From positions 434,001 through 498,000 of the forward strand of contig NZ_KZ319287.1 in NCBI RefSeq assembly GCF_002744755.1: a stretch of 64,000 bases of DNA, given 5' to 3'. Position numbers and translations under genes: made by a program. Shown one piece after another: positions 55,122 to 63,932 of the stretch; the first letter of the stretch is position 1; each line of letters starts with the position of its first letter. The notes under the pieces were generated by a model. It was not told where the DNA came from and ran no database searches. It worked only from the letters and a program-made list of their open reading frames with translations. The stretch is from Leeuwenhoekiella nanhaiensis. Its GTDB lineage: Bacteria; Bacteroidota; Bacteroidia; Flavobacteriales; Flavobacteriaceae.

Positions 55122-56396
55122 TTAGTTTTTAAAACTGTGTTTAAATAATTCCGGATTAATTACCAGCATCGCCCAGCCCCAGTTGTTGGTATTATCGGCA
55201 GTCGTTCCACCTTTAATGAGGCTCATGCTTTCTGAAGCAAACATGTGTGAATACCCCAATTGCAGCTTTACGTTTTTAAGAAGCGGTTGGGTGTAAACCA
55301 GATCAATTTCGGTCCCCAGATACGAATCGGCATCATTAGCAAGCGTTGCATTAGCGGCAAAATAATGACCGGCGAGTATCAGATTAGACTGTTCTCCGGT
55401 TTGAAAGGTAGCACTCGCGTGCAAATCGTTTAAACCTACCGAATTGGCATGATTGCCCACATAAAAGTAGTCCATCAGACCATTAAATTTGTGGTTGGTA
55501 CCATACAGCGGGAAGAAAGAACGACGGTCGGTACTGCCCTGATCTGAGCCACTCAGCAATTCGGCACCTATCCCAAGAGTCGTTTTTCCGGTCTTATAAG
55601 CTGCATCAAGTGCAAGCTGATAGGCAGACAGGCTTTGATCCATGGGATAGGCATCACCAAATTGATAGTAAGCACTTCCGGTTATAGCCAACGCTTGTAT
55701 AGGAAAACTGAAATAGGTACCCAGGGTATGGGTATAGTAAACGCCATCGGGCTGGGTGCGATCGGTATCACTAAACCCCTGAAAACCGGTGTTAAGAGCC
55801 AGAATGCTTAAGCTCGATTTTTCCCAGCTTTTCTTAAAATAGGCGTATTGAAGACTTTTGTAGGTAAAGTAACCGGGAACATCATAGACGTTGCCCAGAA
55901 AAGGTTCGCCCTGCTGACTAAAGGCAAAGCCCAGATCAAGCATAAGACCATCTTTTTTATACTTTAATAATGCGGCATCGTGAAAACGTCCCTGCATCGC
56001 CCAGTCGAGTCCGCCAAAAATGCGCTGGTCGTCATAAGAAATTACCTGCCGGCCCAGTTTAGTCGACCAGTTGGTCCCCAGTTTTAGTTCTGCCCAGGCC
56101 TGAAAAAGCATAAAGGAGTCGTTGCCGTCTGATGGCAAAATCTGGCGGGTATCGCCCCAGGTGCTCACATCCTGAAAAGCCACAAAGAGTTTAAGGGCTT
56201 CTGCGTCATAGCTGAAGTTAAGCCGCGCACGTTGTCTTACAAAAGCTGCGGGCTCGGCATCGTCTGGAAAAAGGCTTCCAAAACCATGTCGGTATTCAAA
56301 GCGCTGCCTCAAATCGGCGTCCAGTTTAAATTCCTGTGCAGTCAGGCTTATGGGGCTTAGACATAAAAAGAAGAATACAAGTTTTAATGTTCTCAT
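55122..56396 (-). CDS. Alginate-export-like outer-membrane porin
   Basis: 424 residues from ATG 56396 (MRTLKLVFFFLCLSPISLTAQ signal peptide; upstream ATG not needed). FKLDADLRQRFEYRHGF, AFVRQRARLNFSYDAE, and WSTKLGRQVISYDDQRIFGGLDW match the 18-strand alginate-export (AlgE/OprD-like) porin family. It lies next to and divergent from cobA, with nitrate genes beyond, and a perfect palindrome in between. A role as an entry channel for nitrate or nitrite is inferred from position; the family itself passes many anions. Confidence 0.82.
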   Translation of the reverse strand: MRTLKLVFFFLCLSPISLTAQEFKLDADLRQRFEYRHGFGSLFPDDAEPAAFVRQRARLNFSYDAEALKLFVAFQDVSTWGDTRQILPSDGNDSFMLFQAWAELKLGTNWSTKLGRQVISYDDQRIFGGLDWAMQGRFHDAALLKYKKDGLMLDLGFAFSQQGEPFLGNVYDVPGYFTYKSLQYAYFKKSWEKSSLSILALNTGFQGFSDTDRTQPDGVYYTHTLGTYFSFPIQALAITGSAYYQFGDAYPMDQSLSAYQLALDAAYKTGKTTLGIGAELLSGSDQGSTDRRSFFPLYGTNHKFNGLMDYFYVGNHANSVGLNDLHASATFQTGEQSNLILAGHYFAANATLANDADSYLGTEIDLVYTQPLLKNVKLQLGYSHMFASESMSLIKGGTTADNTNNWGWAMLVINPELFKHSFKN

Positions 56397-56442
56397 GGCT
56401 TTCAGGTGTTTTTGTGCGACCAAAGATATTCAAGAAATCAAA

Positions 56443-56587: not shown

Positions 56588-57352
56588 ATGAAGATTCCCA
56601 AACTTGTATTAATTGGTGCCGGTCCCGGTGATCCCGAACTCATTACCTTAAAAGCCGTTAAGGCGCTCAAAGAGGCAGCAGTGATCCTCTACGATGCCCT
56701 GGTAAATCCGGAGCTTTTAGACTATGCAAAACCCGAAGCCGAACTCATTTTTGTAGGTAAACGCAAGGGATGTTATGCCTATGCTCAGGATCAGATACAC
56801 GAACTTATTGTGCAACGCGCTTATGCCAAAGGGCTGGTGGTGCGCTTAAAAGGAGGTGATCCTTTTGTATTTGGAAGAGGTTCTGAGGAGCAGGAGTTTG
56901 CTTTACAACACAAGTTAGAGGTCGAAGTTATACCTGGCATATCTTCAAGTATGGCGGTACCGGCGCTTCAGAATATTCCGCTTACGCAACGCGGGCAGGC
57001 CGAAAGCTTCTGGGTAATTACCGGAACCACGCGGGACCATCGGCTTTCTGACGATATCAGGCTGGCCGCAAAAAGCAATGCCACGGTAATTGTGCTTATG
57101 GGCACAGCCAAACTCGATGAGATTGTTACGGTTTTTAAAGCGGAAGGCAAGCATGATCTGCCGGTTGCCATCATTCAAAACGGAACCCGAAAAGACGAAC
57201 GGGTGGGTATAGGAACTGTACAAACCATCGCCGAAGTTTATCAAAATCTAAAGTTGGGTAATCCTGCAATCATTGTTTTGGGGCATGTAGTTGCCCACCG
57301 GGCTAAACTTCAAAACCTGCTTCAGGAGCAGGAGTTGAGCGTGCAGGTTTAG
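56588..57352 (+). CDS. cobA: Uroporphyrinogen-III C-methyltransferase
   Basis: 254 residues, SUMT, makes precorrin-2 for siroheme from uroporphyrinogen III with SAM. LVLIGAGPGDPELITLKAVKAL, YDALVNPELLDYA, VVRLKGGDPFVFGRGSEE, PGISSSMAVPAL and PLTQRG are complete signatures. Siroheme is the cofactor of nitrite and sulfite reductases, which fits the nitrate context. It overlaps the convergent rubredoxin-protein gene by 4 bases. Confidence 0.95.
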   Translation: MKIPKLVLIGAGPGDPELITLKAVKALKEAAVILYDALVNPELLDYAKPEAELIFVGKRKGCYAYAQDQIHELIVQRAYAKGLVVRLKGGDPFVFGRGSEEQEFALQHKLEVEVIPGISSSMAVPALQNIPLTQRGQAESFWVITGTTRDHRLSDDIRLAAKSNATVIVLMGTAKLDEIVTVFKAEGKHDLPVAIIQNGTRKDERVGIGTVQTIAEVYQNLKLGNPAIIVLGHVVAHRAKLQNLLQEQELSVQV

Positions 57353-58788
57353 AGAGCTTCGGTCAGCTGGGTGATTTTTACAAAACCATCCTTTGGCCCT
57401 TCACATAGCGAACACCGGTAATCTTCGGGCAACGACTCAAATGCTACGCCGGGCTTTATATTTTGCAACGCATCTCCATAGCGCACATCGTAAAGCGTCA
57501 TACACGCATTGCACTGGTAAACCTCGACTTCAGTTTTAGGCTTTTCATCTGTAATTTCAGGTTTTTCGGTACGTGTGGTGTTGCCCAGATTTTCAAAGTA
57601 AAGCCGGCTCAGTTCCATAAGCAAACCAGGCAATTCTGCCTGATCCACATCCTGAACGTAAACGACGTATTCACGGGTATTGGGATCAAAATCCCGCGCA
57701 TAGGTGATGTTAAAGGTATCGCGGTAGGCAAAGTCTGCCGGGATGTTTTCAGCTTTATTGACTTCAATAACAATCGAGGTAAAGTAGTATTTACTACTTA
57801 GGTATTCGGTTATGCCAAAGGTCAATCCGTAGGTGCTGATGTCATTTTTGTTGAATTCGTTGACCAAAAATTCCTTCAGCCGAAGGGCTTTATCATTGGC
57901 CACAGGCACATGCCAGTTAAGCTCAAGCATACTGTGGCGTACATTTATACCGAAAAGACCCAGAAATTTTTCCCATTTCAGCTTATCCTCTGCAGGAATT
58001 CCTTTTACAATAAAGGATTTAAAGGGAGTAAGCGAGATTTTACCTATTTGAGATTCGGTACATAAATCGCAAAGGGCTTTTAAAAAAGCGATATCATAGC
58101 GGTTATTTCTCCAGTACAAACCCAGCCAGTAATTGCCCGAAGCCAGGCGGTTCATTCCCTCGTAATAGGGAAAGGGCTGAAAGTCTACCTGCAGCGCCTG
58201 AGAGATGGTCCTGCTGTTTAGGCTTATCGAATCGATCACCAGATCAAATACCATGGTGGCGTTACCGGGTTCTTCGCGCAGCAGTTTTTCTATAGTCAGA
58301 GCTATGCGGGCCAGATCCCAGCTGTAAATCAAAACCGGGTATAGTTGCTGTTCTTCCCAGTGCGGTAACCTGAGATACAGGTACCAATAATCTTCGTGTT
58401 CTGAAGCTATAAAATTAAGATGCCCCGTAAACAGCGGAACGAGCCTTTGCCTGGCGTCGGTGATATTGATCTTAAGTTTTGGGGTGTCCTGAAACTGCTC
58501 CAGAATATACAAATACCGGTCTGCGGTAAGCCAGGCTGTGCTGCCAAAAATTCCGCTTGAGACATACGAAGACACAATGTTTTCAACACCTTCACTGTGT
58601 GCGGGTACGACTTCCAGATTTTCAGTTTTGAAATCTTTTTTTTGATCTTCGCTCAGAAACAGAATGTCCTGCCGAGAGCCAAAGGCAATTGTAGATAAGC
58701 CGTTGCGCTCTGCCACTTCAAGAATGCTTTTCAATTCACCCGGGGCAAGCACCCCGCCTTTTACGATGACTCTGGAATAGTTTTTCAT
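57349..58788 (-). CDS. Nitrite/sulfite-reductase-fold protein without cluster cysteines, fused to rubredoxin
   Basis: 479 residues from ATG 58788, which overlaps the nitrate reductase stop (ATGA); the longer frame is a shadow. VIVKGGVLAPGELKSILEVAE with SRQDILFL (about 8-45), and LKALCDLCTESQIGKISLTP with FIVKGIP (236-265), are the two ferredoxin-like half-domains of nitrite/sulfite reductases. KLKINITDARQRL...HLNFIA (104-128) matches the first siroheme-fold half, which normally lacks Cys. In the second half, where the family has C-x5-C and C-x3-C for [4Fe-4S]/siroheme, there is no Cys from 244 to 425. A rubredoxin domain closes the chain: YQCNAC (C426, C429) and YRCSLC (C459, C462). Role unknown; electron delivery to nitrate or nitrite reductase is inferred from the operon. 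Confidence 0.75.
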   Translation of the reverse strand: MKNYSRVIVKGGVLAPGELKSILEVAERNGLSTIAFGSRQDILFLSEDQKKDFKTENLEVVPAHSEGVENIVSSYVSSGIFGSTAWLTADRYLYILEQFQDTPKLKINITDARQRLVPLFTGHLNFIASEHEDYWYLYLRLPHWEEQQLYPVLIYSWDLARIALTIEKLLREEPGNATMVFDLVIDSISLNSRTISQALQVDFQPFPYYEGMNRLASGNYWLGLYWRNNRYDIAFLKALCDLCTESQIGKISLTPFKSFIVKGIPAEDKLKWEKFLGLFGINVRHSMLELNWHVPVANDKALRLKEFLVNEFNKNDISTYGLTFGITEYLSSKYYFTSIVIEVNKAENIPADFAYRDTFNITYARDFDPNTREYVVYVQDVDQAELPGLLMELSRLYFENLGNTTRTEKPEITDEKPKTEVEVYQCNACMTLYDVRYGDALQNIKPGVAFESLPEDYRCSLCEGPKDGFVKITQLTEAL

Positions 58789-61700
58789 GACACAGATTGG
58801 GTTGATTCGGTTAAGAGTTCGCGAACTTCTGTCTTGCAGCTTCCGCAGCCCAGACCGGCGCCGGTTTTGTTGCAAAGTGCCGTAAAATCGGTACAGCCGC
58901 CTGCGATGGCATCGGCGATATTGCCGGCTCCCACCTGACTGCACGAGCACACCAGGCGACCCAGAACGGGAGCTTGTTTGGCACTGCCGCGCAGCAATTG
59001 ATCGCGTTTTTCAGCAAGTTCAATTTTGCTGTCAATCAGGTTTTTAAATTCGGCAAATTCTTTCTTATCCCCCATAAGCACAGCACCTACCAGCAAATCG
59101 TCTTTGATAATGCACTTTTTGTAATAATTGCGGGCCACATCCATAAAAATCACCTCCTCATAATCGGGGTCGTTTTTAGGGATGCTGATATTGCCAATGC
59201 TGCAGAGATCAAGATCTTCAAATTTCAGTATGTTCATAGGCACCGAACCTTCATAGGAAGTGCTGATATCACCGGATAAGTAATTGGCCAGGATTGCTGC
59301 CTGCTCTTCGGCAGCAGCGGTGATCCCAAAAGTCTGATTGCGAAACTCGGCTATTTCGCCCAGTGCAAAAACCGAAGGATCTGAGGTTTGCAAAAATTCA
59401 TTGACCTTCACGCCCCGTCCCATAACAAGACCGGCTTTGCGGGCAATCTCAATATTGGGCTGGGTGCCAATGGCATAGACAATGGCGTGTGCTTCGATCA
59501 ACTTACCGCTCTTTAGGGTAACCTCGATGGTTTTGGGTTCGTCACCCGGAAAAACGGTGCTTACCTCGTTGTCAAAATAGACCGATATACCGCGCCGCTG
59601 CACATCAATCGCCAACAAGCGACTGGCAACGGTGTCAAGCTGGCGTTCCATCAGGTAGGAGGAGCGTTGCACGATGGTAATGTTTACCTGTTTATGTCTT
59701 AATGAGGCTGCTAGTTCGAGCCCAAGGAGGCCGCCTCCTACAATGACCACACGCTGCTGCTCCGGAGGAATGCCCGTTTGTGCCAGATAATCCTTAAAAC
59801 GGTCGGCATCTTCCTTATCGCGCATCGTAAAGCGACCTTCCAGATCCAAGCGTGCGTCAGGCGGAACAAAAGCACGGCTTCCGGTAGCCAGGATAAGTTT
59901 GTCATAGGTGTGGTAAATGCCGCGACTGTCTTTTAGGGTTCGGGATTTCCGGTCAATGTGTACGACCGGGTTTCCGGAATGGATTTTAATGTTCAGGGCT
60001 TTGAGCTGATGACTTTTGGCCTTGAGGAGTTTTTCCCAATTGAGTGCTTCGGTGATATATTCGGGCAGTAAAACACGGTTGTAAAACGGATGCTCTTCCT
60101 TCGAAAAAACACTGATTTGATCGTCTTTATTCAGGTCGCGGTAATTCTGTACAAACCGAAACGCTGCGGCTCCCGAGCCCACCACCACAATTTTCTCCGG
60201 TTTCTTTTGGTGCCTGGCAACCTTAACCGCTGTAAACTTAAAATCGGGTTCCTTGCTCTGTGGGTCAACCATATTCTGAGTCAGGTTGTTGGTGCGGTTG
60301 AGGCTCGAGTTGAGCTTTTTACCCCAATGCATTGGTAAAAATACAACTCCCTTACGTATGCTGTCGGTAAGCCAGGCGGTCACCCGTACGTTACCGTTCT
60401 CGCTGCTCACTTCGCAGAGATTGCCTTCGCGTATGTTGAGGGCGAAAGCATCAGCGGGATGAATTTCAAGCACGGGTTTGGGATAATGGGTACGTAAGCG
60501 GGAAACCTTGCCCGTTTTGGTCATCGTATGCCATTGATCGCGCACCCTTCCGGTGGTAAGTATAAACGGAAAAGCCGCGCTGGGTTTTATCGAACGGTTC
60601 GTTACCGTTGCCGGAATATTAAAAACGGCCTTCTGTGAAGGGGTGTAAAACTTGCGGTCTTCAAAAAGGCGCGGAGTCCCGGGATGGCGGTATTCATTTA
60701 CGGGCCACTGAAAGCTGCCTTCGGTTTTAAGACGGTCGTAATTGAGATACGAAATGTCGATACTGGTACCACGGGTCATGGTGCAGTATTCCTGGTAAAT
60801 CTCTTCGGTATTGTAAAAATTAAAACCTCTGAAGCCCATTTTTTGGGCGAAATCACATAAGATTTCTACATCAGGACGGGCTTCTCCCGGCGCATTGACT
60901 GCTTTGGGTAAATAGGTGATGCGCCGTTCAGAATTGGTCATGGTGCCTTCTTTTTCGAGCCAGCCTGCCGCCGGAAGCACCAGGTCTGCATAGGCCAGCG
61001 TATCAGAACGGTTAGAGATATCCTGAACGACTACAAAGCGGGCATTTTTCAGGGCTTTTTCTACCCGGTTTACATCGGGCAGGCTTACTGCAGGATTGGT
61101 GCAGATGATCCAAATAGCTTTGAGTTTTCCCGTTTCGAGCTCTTCAAACATTTGAGTAGCGGTGTAGCCGGGTTTGGGTGAGATAGACTCTACTCCCCAA
61201 AATTGTGCGACCTCACTCCGGTGCTCGGGGTTCATAAGGTCTTTGTGTACCGCCAGCAGATTGGCCATTCCGCCCACTTCACGGCCACCCATGGCGTTGG
61301 GTTGCCCGGTTAGGGAAAAAGGTCCGCAACCGGGTTTTCCTACCTGTCCGGTGATGAGGGAGAGGTTAAGCAAAGCGAAATTTTTATTGGTTCCTACCAC
61401 GCTTTGGTTAAGGCCCATCGCCCACATACTGATGAATCCTTTGGAGATTCCAATCCAGTCTGCGGCTTTTTTAATGTCTGCCATAGGAACGCCACAGAGT
61501 TTTGAGGCTTCCCGAAGCGACAACTTGTTTACCTGCTCTTTGTATTGATTAAAGCCTTCGGTATGGTTGTTTATAAAGTCTTTGTCAATCAGTCCCTGCT
61601 GAAGCAGGCGCCTGCCTATCGCATTGTATAAAATGATGTCTGTGCCCGGTATGAGCTGCAGGTGCAAATCTGCGGCTGCAGCCGTATCGGTACGTCGCGG

Positions 61701-62309
61701 GTCTACTGCGATAACCCGCACATCGGGATTTTTCTCTTTGTGCTGCTCAAGCCTGCGGTAGAGAATGGGATGGCAATAAGCCGGGTTAGCACCGGTTATC
61801 AAAAAGCAATCGGCCAGTTCAATATCTGCATACGAAATAGGTACAGAATCTTCCCCGAAGGTTTTTTTATAGCCCACAACCGCGCTGCTCATACACAGCC
61901 TGGAGTTAGTGTCAATATTGTTTGTGCCCAGAAATCCCTTGACTAATTTGTTTGCGATGTAATATTCTTCGGTAAGGCACTGTCCCGAAACGTAGAAGCC
62001 CACACTATCGGGCCCGTGTTTTTCGATAATGCTTTTAAAAACCTGAGCGGCACGGTCCAGAGCGGTGTCCCAGTCTACGCGCTCCAGCGGGTGTGAGCGG
62101 CTCCAGCGCATCTGTGGGTACAGCAACCGGTCTGAAGTATCATTTACCACATAATGCAGGTTGCGGCCTTTAGAGCAAAGCATCCCGCGGTTTACAGGAT
62201 GATCGGGATCACCGTCTACCTGAATGCGGTTTTTGGCGTCTTTGGTGATGAGCAGACCGCAGCCCACGCCGCAATACGAACAGGTAGATTTTAAGACTTT
62301 TTCGGGCAT
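58785..62309 (-). CDS. nasA: Assimilatory nitrate reductase fused to NAD(P)H:FAD oxidoreductase and BFD domain
   Basis: 1174 residues, cytoplasmic. (1) Residues 1-690: molybdopterin oxidoreductase of NasA type, with N-terminal [4Fe-4S] Cys10, 13, 17, 45, the Mo-ligand Cys139 (SRLCMSS), and the C-terminal MoCo-binding domain (TTGRVRDQWHTMTKTG; VFLPMHWG). (2) About 705-1100: NirB/NasC-like FAD and NAD(P)H domains (VVVGSGAAAFRF, LILATGSRAFVP, VVIVGGGLLGLE, FALGEIAEF). (3) 1118-1165: BFD-type [2Fe-2S] domain (C1121, C1123, C1155, C1158). Reduces nitrate to nitrite using NAD(P)H in one chain, instead of separate NasA and NasC. It is followed directly by the rubredoxin-tailed protein. No break or frameshift seen. 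Confidence 0.93.
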   Translation of the reverse strand: MPEKVLKSTCSYCGVGCGLLITKDAKNRIQVDGDPDHPVNRGMLCSKGRNLHYVVNDTSDRLLYPQMRWSRSHPLERVDWDTALDRAAQVFKSIIEKHGPDSVGFYVSGQCLTEEYYIANKLVKGFLGTNNIDTNSRLCMSSAVVGYKKTFGEDSVPISYADIELADCFLITGANPAYCHPILYRRLEQHKEKNPDVRVIAVDPRRTDTAAAADLHLQLIPGTDIILYNAIGRRLLQQGLIDKDFINNHTEGFNQYKEQVNKLSLREASKLCGVPMADIKKAADWIGISKGFISMWAMGLNQSVVGTNKNFALLNLSLITGQVGKPGCGPFSLTGQPNAMGGREVGGMANLLAVHKDLMNPEHRSEVAQFWGVESISPKPGYTATQMFEELETGKLKAIWIICTNPAVSLPDVNRVEKALKNARFVVVQDISNRSDTLAYADLVLPAAGWLEKEGTMTNSERRITYLPKAVNAPGEARPDVEILCDFAQKMGFRGFNFYNTEEIYQEYCTMTRGTSIDISYLNYDRLKTEGSFQWPVNEYRHPGTPRLFEDRKFYTPSQKAVFNIPATVTNRSIKPSAAFPFILTTGRVRDQWHTMTKTGKVSRLRTHYPKPVLEIHPADAFALNIREGNLCEVSSENGNVRVTAWLTDSIRKGVVFLPMHWGKKLNSSLNRTNNLTQNMVDPQSKEPDFKFTAVKVARHQKKPEKIVVVGSGAAAFRFVQNYRDLNKDDQISVFSKEEHPFYNRVLLPEYITEALNWEKLLKAKSHQLKALNIKIHSGNPVVHIDRKSRTLKDSRGIYHTYDKLILATGSRAFVPPDARLDLEGRFTMRDKEDADRFKDYLAQTGIPPEQQRVVIVGGGLLGLELAASLRHKQVNITIVQRSSYLMERQLDTVASRLLAIDVQRRGISVYFDNEVSTVFPGDEPKTIEVTLKSGKLIEAHAIVYAIGTQPNIEIARKAGLVMGRGVKVNEFLQTSDPSVFALGEIAEFRNQTFGITAAAEEQAAILANYLSGDISTSYEGSVPMNILKFEDLDLCSIGNISIPKNDPDYEEVIFMDVARNYYKKCIIKDDLLVGAVLMGDKKEFAEFKNLIDSKIELAEKRDQLLRGSAKQAPVLGRLVCSCSQVGAGNIADAIAGGCTDFTALCNKTGAGLGCGSCKTEVRELLTESTQSVS

Positions 62310-62501: not shown

Positions 62502-63932
62502 TTATGCATTTGATGGCACTAACTGCTCGGGTAAATCGTAGCTGAGATCTTCGGCTGCAGATTTTTCGTCAGCGGTTGAAAAGCGTATGGCAAGTGCCAA
62601 AACTCCGGCTAGAAATACTAAAATACCAATGAGAAAGTAACCGCTTGATACGGCTGTGGCTGCTGCTTCTGCCTGAGCCAGTTTTACCACTTCTTCAGCT
62701 GCACCGGCATTGGCATTTATGGCTGCCTGCTCAGCCACGGCGGCTTTCGATTTTAAGAGCAGGGCGGCGAGAAATGCACCTACGTTACCCCCGGAACCAA
62801 CAATACCTGAAATAGAACCTATAGCTTTTTTGTTGATAAACGGAACTACCGAGAAGGTTGCTCCTTCAGCCATTTGTACCGAAAGACTAAAGGCTACCAA
62901 AAAGACAATACCCACAATTAAACTTGTGATGGCCGAAAAGGTAACCAGCATAACTCCCTCCAGGGCAAGAATAGCAACCAAAAAGAGCACCCGGCCGCGC
63001 AATCCCTTCAGCTTACCAAATTTATCTCCAAAATAGCCTCCCAACGTACGGGCAAATAAATTCATCAGAGCAAAGGAAAGCACGATATTACCGGCGGTGA
63101 TACGATCAAGGCTGAAGGTGTTTTGAAGGTAGTCATCCATAGTCCCGTAAACGGTTAATTCGATGCCAAAACAGGCGGCATAAACCACAAAGAGAATCCA
63201 CACCCGGTAATCTTTTAAAGCTTCCATAAAGCCTACTTCGTCCTTTTTACCGGCTTTTACTTTTTTACCGGCTGCGCGGAGTTCGCTAAAATTACCTTCG
63301 GGCGTATCCTGAGTAAAGAAATAATACACAATGCCCATCAGGAAGCAGATAATTCCTGCGATGATAAGCGAGTACCTCCAGGCATCTGCTTCAGCAACAC
63401 CCATACCGATCACGGCAGCTGCAATAAGCGGCATCCCCAGACGGTTTGCACCACCACCCAGATTACCCCAGCCTGCCGAAGTGGCGTTGGCGGTTCCTAC
63501 GATGTTAGAGGCAAACATAAGCGAGGTATGTACCTGTGTGATTACAAAGCTGGCGCCGATAAAGCCTATAAATAACCGGCAGATTAAAAACTGAAGCGGA
63601 GTTTGTACCAGCCCGCACAGGATAACGGGTATTGAACCCAGCAGGAGCAACCATGTATAGCACAATCTAGGGCCGTATTTGTCGCAAAGTTTACCTATTA
63701 GCAAACGGGCAAATACAGTACCTGCAACGGCCAGAATCACAGAATTCCATTTTTGATTGGGAGAAAGCCCCAGATCCCGCACGACATCGGGCATAAAAGG
63801 AACAATACCAAACCATGCGAAGAAGCATAAAAAGAATGCCACCGAAGTAATCCAAAACGTTCGCATAGGAACGCTGGTAAAATCTTTCAAATTAAGGCGG
63901 GTTGCCTTTGCGGAAGTGAATGTACGTGTCAT
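62502..63932 (-). CDS. narK: Nitrate/nitrite MFS transporter NarK
   Basis: 476 residues, 12 membrane segments. The nitrate signature NATSAGWGNLGGGANRLG and FFLCFFAWFGIVPFMPDVV at the start mark the NarK/NasA nitrate-nitrite porter family. A large loop between segments 6 and 7 (about 210-235) is charged. The C-terminal segments are separated by an alanine-rich stretch (AAVAEQAAINANAGAAEEVVK). It stands upstream of nasA in the same direction, 190 bases away, probably in one transcript. Confidence 0.93.
   Translation of the reverse strand: MTRTFTSAKATRLNLKDFTSVPMRTFWITSVAFFLCFFAWFGIVPFMPDVVRDLGLSPNQKWNSVILAVAGTVFARLLIGKLCDKYGPRLCYTWLLLLGSIPVILCGLVQTPLQFLICRLFIGFIGASFVITQVHTSLMFASNIVGTANATSAGWGNLGGGANRLGMPLIAAAVIGMGVAEADAWRYSLIIAGIICFLMGIVYYFFTQDTPEGNFSELRAAGKKVKAGKKDEVGFMEALKDYRVWILFVVYAACFGIELTVYGTMDDYLQNTFSLDRITAGNIVLSFALMNLFARTLGGYFGDKFGKLKGLRGRVLFLVAILALEGVMLVTFSAITSLIVGIVFLVAFSLSVQMAEGATFSVVPFINKKAIGSISGIVGSGGNVGAFLAALLLKSKAAVAEQAAINANAGAAEEVVKLAQAEAAATAVSSGYFLIGILVFLAGVLALAIRFSTADEKSAAEDLSYDLPEQLVPSNA

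Follow-up and report, generated by a model that had tools for sequence, protein, structure and literature searches.

In a stretch of 64,000 nucleotides from Leeuwenhoekiella nanhaiensis (contig NZ_KZ319287.1, positions 434,001 to 498,000; hereafter the window), the minus strand carries a gene for a protein of 479 residues that we name RdNiR, for rubredoxin-tailed pseudo-nitrite reductase. Judged by sequence comparison, it appears to be a new, cluster-less and rubredoxin-tailed form of the known superfamily of nitrite and sulfite reductases (NiR and SiR). RdNiR represents a conserved and widespread Bacteroidota family that is encoded with, and is specific to, an assimilatory nitrate reductase, a near-absolute linkage from which a rubredoxin-less clade and extra copies depart. 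The protein probably feeds or docks this enzyme. We give about an even chance to the fuller proposal that it is a dedicated accessory subunit, putatively for electron transfer or docking, of the Bacteroidota NasA-NirB(N)-BFD fusion nitrate reductase. The features that bear on this proposal, in window coordinates, are the following.

57349-58788, minus strand: RdNiR, 479 residues, ATG at 58788; from Pfam, Foldseek and profile alignment
57382-57519, minus strand: rubredoxin domain, residues 424-469, with C426/C429/C459/C462; PF00301, E = 4.9e-13
58060-58071, minus strand: C240-x-x-C243, on a helix of the second ferredoxin-like half domain; conserved in 81/81 close sequences
57787-57942, minus strand: residues 283-334, matching the four-Cys region of NiR/SiR, here a shorter loop with zero Cys; low-posterior alignment
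58672-58674, minus strand: R39, the arginine of the NiR/SiR T-x-R-Q motif (R117 of the E. coli SiR hemoprotein); posterior 1.00
58471-58473, minus strand: K106, matching the second Lys (K217 of E. coli SiR) or the Asn of NirA; posterior 0.92-0.93
58785-58788, minus strand: ATGA overlap of the RdNiR start with the stop of the NasA fusion; read from the sequence
58785-62309, minus strand: NasA fusion, 1174 residues; from domain scans

The two-fold repeated fold of NiR and SiR seems to span the entire body of RdNiR. Pfam matches the window protein (P0001) with PF03460 (NIR_SIR_ferr) in two stretches (2.2e-10) and with PF00301 once, and among the 31 family members of alignment A2 these domains are found in 31/31 and 30/31, respectively. 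PF01077, the 4Fe-4S/siroheme domain, is absent from the Pfam matches of the window protein at E up to 10 and from all 31 family members scanned at E up to 1. In a Foldseek search against the PDB, the 31 best matches are all SiR or NiR (E 1.7e-10 to 4.2e-7, 455-530 columns); the query was an AlphaFold2 model of low confidence (predicted local distance difference test, pLDDT, 60.9; predicted template modelling score, pTM, 0.43). Superposition of this model gives a root-mean-square deviation of about 14-15 Å over the whole structure, from which residues cannot be placed; residues 421-470, the rubredoxin, are well modelled with a mean pLDDT of 92-95. Profile-profile alignment (hhalign) of the family with 20 diverse NiR/SiR sequences yields a probability of 95.6-97.5 over 390-471 columns. 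This set consisted of 15 of 18 fetched regions, the SiR of the organism itself and four of five NirA sequences, with the NirB regions L178-L180 and L146 left out. The assignment of putative siroheme-type halves rests on the latter two analyses, namely Foldseek with the low-confidence model and the profile-profile alignment.

The comparison with NiR/SiR confirms that, as far as sequence can tell, all four cysteines that ligate the [4Fe-4S]/siroheme centre are missing from RdNiR. The window protein has six cysteines only, C240, C243, C426, C429, C459 and C462. In the profile alignment, whose posteriors are low in the former cluster region, the first NiR/SiR cluster cysteine is opposite a gap, and the remaining three are paired with L290, Y329 and K333 (posteriors 0.06-0.28). 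The residues paired with C240 and C243 in three NiR/SiR references are A/A, A/I or K/F, and, given their place on a helix in the second of the two ferredoxin-like halves, they are not the missing ligands. Stray cysteines occur in the former cluster region of divergent relatives, at least four of them in 8 of the 67 members of a diverse set, and on reading the printed segments of those relatives no C-x5-C ... C-x3-C motif was seen.

Parts of the pocket may have outlived the cluster. R39 aligns with R117 of E. coli SiR (numbered by hand on the alignment) and is an arginine in 67/67 diverse members, and K257 aligns with Q396 at a posterior of 1.00 and is likewise invariant in 67/67; we take R117 and Q396 to be siroheme contacts. 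The basic residues of the distal pocket of E. coli SiR are R83, R153, K215 and K217. R153, the RN arginine, is replaced by E69 (posterior 0.97), a position at which most of the 67 members have P, E, Q or N. The K215 site is K104 (posterior 0.67-0.75), a variable residue in the same set, the K217 site, K106, is K or R in 64/67, and the R83 site, residue 6 by hand alignment, is R or K in 53/67. In total, 17 positions show no variation across the 67 members; those invariant with or without the rubredoxin include R39, Q40, Q114, N125, E210, W221, Y225, R227, K257, E289 and K305, of which firm alignment puts just R39 and K257 at the pocket. C240 is retained in 62/67 and C243 in 65/67.

The rubredoxin tail scores 49.3 bits against a cut-off of 23 in the window protein, with both C-x-x-C metal knuckles present. 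Its four cysteines are kept in 81/81 close sequences and in 59/59 tailed members of the diverse set, and the linker between body and rubredoxin is variable (about residues 403-420). In a divergent RdNiR (L150:8469-9848 (+), from G190, L106), the long loop between the knuckles is gone and the four cysteines are kept. The initial annotation of this gene had proposed a NiR/SiR fold over the body, the absence of Cys between residues 244 and 425 and hence of the cluster ligands, a rubredoxin at C426/C429 and C459/C462, and an ATGA overlap with a NasA fusion that carries its own NAD(P)H module, and all of these are borne out. It had also named two findings that would speak against it, a lack of profile similarity to NiR/SiR and a cluster held by C240/C243, and the alignments above point the other way on both.

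RdNiR is not a peculiarity of the one genome in which it was initially presented. A search for related loci returned 481 stretches that encode a relative at E up to 1e-3, not all of them shown to be full length. Eighty were kept, and their proteins are 59-99% identical to RdNiR across most of its length; a contig of L. parthenopeia encodes one of 99% identity. Alignments A1 and A3 were made of 30 and 56 of 81 close sequences, and A2 of 14 of these and 17 others. The ratio dN/dS is 0.026-0.050 in 7/10 pairs, with dS saturated in the other three, and RdNiR is thus under purifying selection. Both a sequencing or open reading frame artefact and a decaying pseudogene are ruled out by the 80 orthologous loci together with the ratios of the unsaturated pairs.

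The putative partner of RdNiR is encoded immediately upstream. The NasA fusion combines a molybdopterin nitrate reductase (about residues 1-698), a NirB-like FAD/NAD(P)H module (706-1096), which includes a Rubredoxin_C domain (2.1e-24), and a BFD [2Fe-2S] domain (1119-1168). It scores below the NCBIfam equivalog cut-offs, with 545.7 of 1100 bits for NasC and 582.1 of 666.25 for formate dehydrogenase alpha; therefore, the label of nitrate reductase rests on similarity and context. RdNiR lies directly behind the fusion in 80/80 fetched loci, although in L049 the contig leaves only the reductase part of the fusion. The two genes overlap by 4 or 1 nucleotides in 64 of these loci and are separated by 60 nucleotides or fewer in 74, the largest gap being 207 nucleotides.

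The same association is seen in two overlapping genome samples, 296 genomes of the phylum and 396 of the class, whose union was counted by hand. In the former, 55 genomes matched, 32 of them with the rubredoxin part only and so dropped from the body count; the body is found in 23 (22 with rubredoxin, and G126 without), the fusion in 27 and both in 22. The corresponding numbers are 30, 29 and 28 for the class sample, and 37, 41 and 35 for the union. Wherever both genes occur (35/35 genomes), they share a strand and RdNiR is downstream of the fusion within 1 kb, which answers in the affirmative the question raised with the initial annotation of whether this architecture always neighbours the fusion, apart from the exceptions described below. 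The genes found between the two are a Nitr_red_assoc gene in G091 and a gene of 269 codons without Pfam match in G190. The former (PF09655; L151:6796-7299 (-)) has counterparts of similar size in the same place in L227, L228 and L231, identified by size only. Six fusion genomes have no RdNiR; five of them contain NirA-type operons, and in G619 the contig ends inside the BFD domain of the fusion. G126 and G626 have a rubredoxin-less body and no NasA fusion. The gene also occurs in four plasmid records, two of which annotate it, as 'rubredoxin'.

The type of nitrite reductase separates the genomes with RdNiR from the fusion genomes without it. In the organism of the window, the operon (L004) runs nirB, nirD, DUF4202, PilJ-domain histidine kinase, LuxR-type regulator, NarK-type transporter, NasA fusion and RdNiR. 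The search for nirA or nirBD just outside the window, suggested initially, thus finds nirB and nirD 3.1-3.5 kb past its end (nirB at C1:501539-504037, window end at C1:498000). The nirB product has 833 residues and contains the cluster domain PF01077, and that of nirD is a Rieske protein; a 697-residue SiR is encoded on a separate contig of the same genome. Since the organism has a real NirB, RdNiR is not needed as a nitrite reductase, and a replacement for a missing NiR is ruled out. Among the 296 genomes, NirB at E up to 1e-150 is present in 22, exactly those with both the fusion and RdNiR. None of the five genomes with the fusion and no RdNiR (G219, G050, G008, G155 and G179) has NirB at this threshold. 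Each has instead an operon NirA with all four cluster cysteines (5/5, open frames of 595-678 residues), and a flavodoxin-type protein and an FAD/NAD-binding flavoprotein are encoded beside it in 5/5. Within this sample, RdNiR therefore goes with the variant of the pathway that uses NADH-NirB. In G179 (L149:6398-10053 (+)), the fusion has its N-terminal part encoded in a frame other than that of the remainder, apparently by frameshift or sequencing error; this fusion, possibly broken or misread, was counted as a fusion.

Exceptions to the linkage occur. Among 147 genomes of Chitinophagaceae type (the family of G626, its name inferred), 31 have matches at 35 places, and the context was read for 20 of these 35. 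Eight of the bodies (419-432 residues) end before a rubredoxin and 27 are tailed. The eight (L181:5825-7120 (-), L214, L215, L216, L217, L219, L221 and L153) form one clade, with support of 100/100, nested among tailed members in a tree of 67 rows (64 distinct) rooted at the midpoint only, so that a single loss of rubredoxin is the simplest reading. All eight keep C240, C243, R39, K106 and K257. NasA is absent near the 6/6 members that have several kb of context on both sides, and in G722 and G762 the rubredoxin-less copy is accompanied by a tailed, NasA-linked one. The copy of G626 is a clean open reading frame of 431 codons that stops before any rubredoxin, flanked by genes like ALAS, hemCD, hemB and a siroheme dehydrogenase (named by reading) and by SiR; no context common to the other rubredoxin-less members was seen. 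Since this clade retains the invariant residues and the CxxC pair, the body serves a purpose other than docking on NasA, perhaps the binding of a tetrapyrrole or an anion.

To account for these observations, we favor a scheme in which RdNiR would descend from a nitrite or sulfite reductase by loss of the [4Fe-4S]/siroheme ligands, the ancestor presumably being an active NiR that NirB made redundant. What is left of the body may dock on the fusion, and the rubredoxin, tethered by the variable linker, would act as a one-electron arm beside the FAD, [2Fe-2S] and Mo centres, passing electrons to or from NasA. This scheme is built on the homology, the lost ligands, the four-Cys rubredoxin, the regular position of RdNiR behind the fusion, the purifying selection on it and its occurrence alongside NirB in the sampled genomes. 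A precedent for an operon-encoded electron donor comes from Bradyrhizobium, where growth on nitrate requires the operon-encoded Flp and growth on nitrite does not, and Flp is proposed as the electron donor to NasC (PMC4724949).

Several observations weigh against this scheme. With an NAD(P)H-FAD-BFD chain already built into the fusion, the need for a further carrier is not evident. The BFD cysteines and the GGGLLG nucleotide-binding motif are kept in 5/5 fusions without RdNiR; therefore, RdNiR is not there to mend the chain of the fusion itself. A glycine usually follows each CxxC motif of a rubredoxin, but here it is replaced after the first motif in 59/59 tailed members and after the second in 53/59. 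Pure docking is hard to reconcile with the rubredoxin-less clade, which keeps the invariant residues and CxxC away from NasA. In addition to its NasA-linked copy (L222), G640 carries a second tailed copy (L223:8385-9866 (-)) with no NasA in 18 kb, and G731 carries a further tailed copy closely related to it. Finally, an earlier hhalign run of the A2 profile against five close NirA only gave a weak result (probability 8.2, 68 columns). The initial annotation had described a dead NiR paralogue re-used as a docking or electron-transfer subunit. The re-use remains the simplest reading, whereas 'dead' fits the cluster only, as the invariant residues of the body persist in the rubredoxin-less, NasA-free clade. 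More tentatively, and with less confidence than in the subunit role as such, we envisage that a siroheme reductase lost its cluster, retained its pocket and was recruited, armed with a rubredoxin, to nitrate reductase, the enzyme that acts one step earlier in the same pathway. There it might guide nitrite or a tetrapyrrole in addition to electrons, and one Chitinophagaceae lineage would have freed the body again as a rubredoxin-less, NasA-independent pocket protein.

The retained residues could also be explained if the emptied pocket still takes up a ligand without a cluster, be it siroheme, a different tetrapyrrole or an oxyanion, so that RdNiR carries, inserts or senses this ligand for NirB or SiR and the rubredoxin is an add-on of the nitrate system. 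The invariance of the 11 residues from R39 to K305 irrespective of the tail, the location of the G626 copy between haem/siroheme-synthesis-like genes and SiR, and a SUMT gene near RdNiR in 15/80 loci are in line with this account. We nevertheless consider it rather unlikely, because SiR R153 has no counterpart (position 69 holds P, E, Q, N or other residues), the residue at the K215 site varies, none of the haem, siroheme or SiR queries used has a match in the remaining five rubredoxin-less loci with context, and the five NasA/NirA genomes have siroheme-type enzymes without RdNiR. A general siroheme factor is ruled out by the absence of RdNiR from NirA-type genomes. That RdNiR is still an active nitrite or sulfite reductase, its cluster held by C240/C243 and other residues, is very improbable despite the invariance of this pair in 81/81 close sequences; these are the only non-rubredoxin cysteines of the window protein, both are on the helix of the ferredoxin-like half, away from the cluster site, and NirB is present.

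Two further accounts place RdNiR at the nitrate reductase in a different capacity. As a scaffold, it would link NirB to the NasA fusion, and nitrite would be handed over before it escapes, an idea that draws on the derivation of the fold from a nitrite-binding one and on the occurrence of the tailed form only where NirB and the fusion co-occur (22/22 in the 296-genome sample). This seems improbable to us, since nirB is at least 7 kb upstream of RdNiR in the 57/80 loci where nirB is visible, on another contig in G154 and G190, and on the opposite strand in G021, G088 and G182. Equally improbable is a dedicated maturation factor, or chaperone, that loads the fusion with Mo cofactor or FeS clusters. 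Genes for redox-enzyme maturation are typically linked directly to the gene of their enzyme, as the strict position of RdNiR one gene downstream of the fusion would have it, and genes of MobA, MoaA or MoeA type (named by reading the starts of open reading frames) come next in several Chitinophagaceae loci; a rubredoxin, however, is unexpected in a chaperone, and the fusion persists without RdNiR in five NirA-type genomes. We retain the accessory redox or docking subunit as our preferred reading.

In the window, two further genes flank the pair formed by the fusion and RdNiR.

62502-63932, minus strand: transporter of the major facilitator superfamily, 476 residues, of NarK type by context; PF07690
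56588-57352, plus strand: tetrapyrrole methylase, of SUMT type by context (siroheme route); PF00590, 2.5e-49

The methylase gene is convergent with that of RdNiR, and their ends share 4 nucleotides. The DUF4202 gene (L004:10550-11128 (-); 8.2e-78), between nirD and the sensor kinase, is matched in 63/80 related loci. The PilJ-domain histidine kinase and the LuxR-type regulator (L004:8069-10546 (-)), matched in 67/80 loci and, with some weak hits, in 73/80 loci, respectively, are likely a nitrate sensor pair. An Alginate_exp-type outer membrane protein (window 55122-56423 (-)), perhaps a nitrate porin, adjoins the nas cluster, and open reading frames of similar size and start adjoin narK in several relatives.

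Nitrate is opened up to marine and soil Bacteroidota by assimilatory nitrate reductase, and a conserved subunit in the gene cluster of this enzyme is called only 'rubredoxin' in the two plasmid records that annotate it. If our proposal is true, RdNiR would be a cluster-less protein of NiR/SiR fold with a redox job, the remnant of an enzyme taken over by the reaction that comes just before its own in the pathway, and its genes should not be counted as rubredoxins or nitrite reductases in surveys of the nitrogen cycle. No description of RdNiR was found in the PMC open-access literature by title or abstract start, a search that did not cover literature outside PMC.

Compared with known systems, RdNiR shares with NirA and CysI of the NiR/SiR superfamily the two-fold repeated fold predicted over its body and the T-x-R-Q arginine, but it is without the four cluster cysteines, an equivalent of R153 and a detectable PF01077, and has gained a rubredoxin. 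There is weak NCBIfam similarity to the precorrin-3B synthase CobG in 24/31 RdNiR members (best 8.3e-6), whereas the window protein is far under the cut-off (10.1 vs 234.8 bits). A covalent rubredoxin is also found in the flavorubredoxin NorV and in 506-residue 'hydroxylamine reductase' chains with a rubredoxin stretch (7e0l), whose bodies are active metalloenzymes of other folds. Among the redox partners of Nas enzymes, Flp is a flavoprotein and NasG of Paracoccus a Rieske protein. Like these two (for Bradyrhizobium Flp, PMC4724949), RdNiR would be a redox protein encoded with an assimilatory nitrate reductase; unlike them, it is a putative pseudo-NiR with a rubredoxin, and an NAD(P)H module is already part of the reductase.

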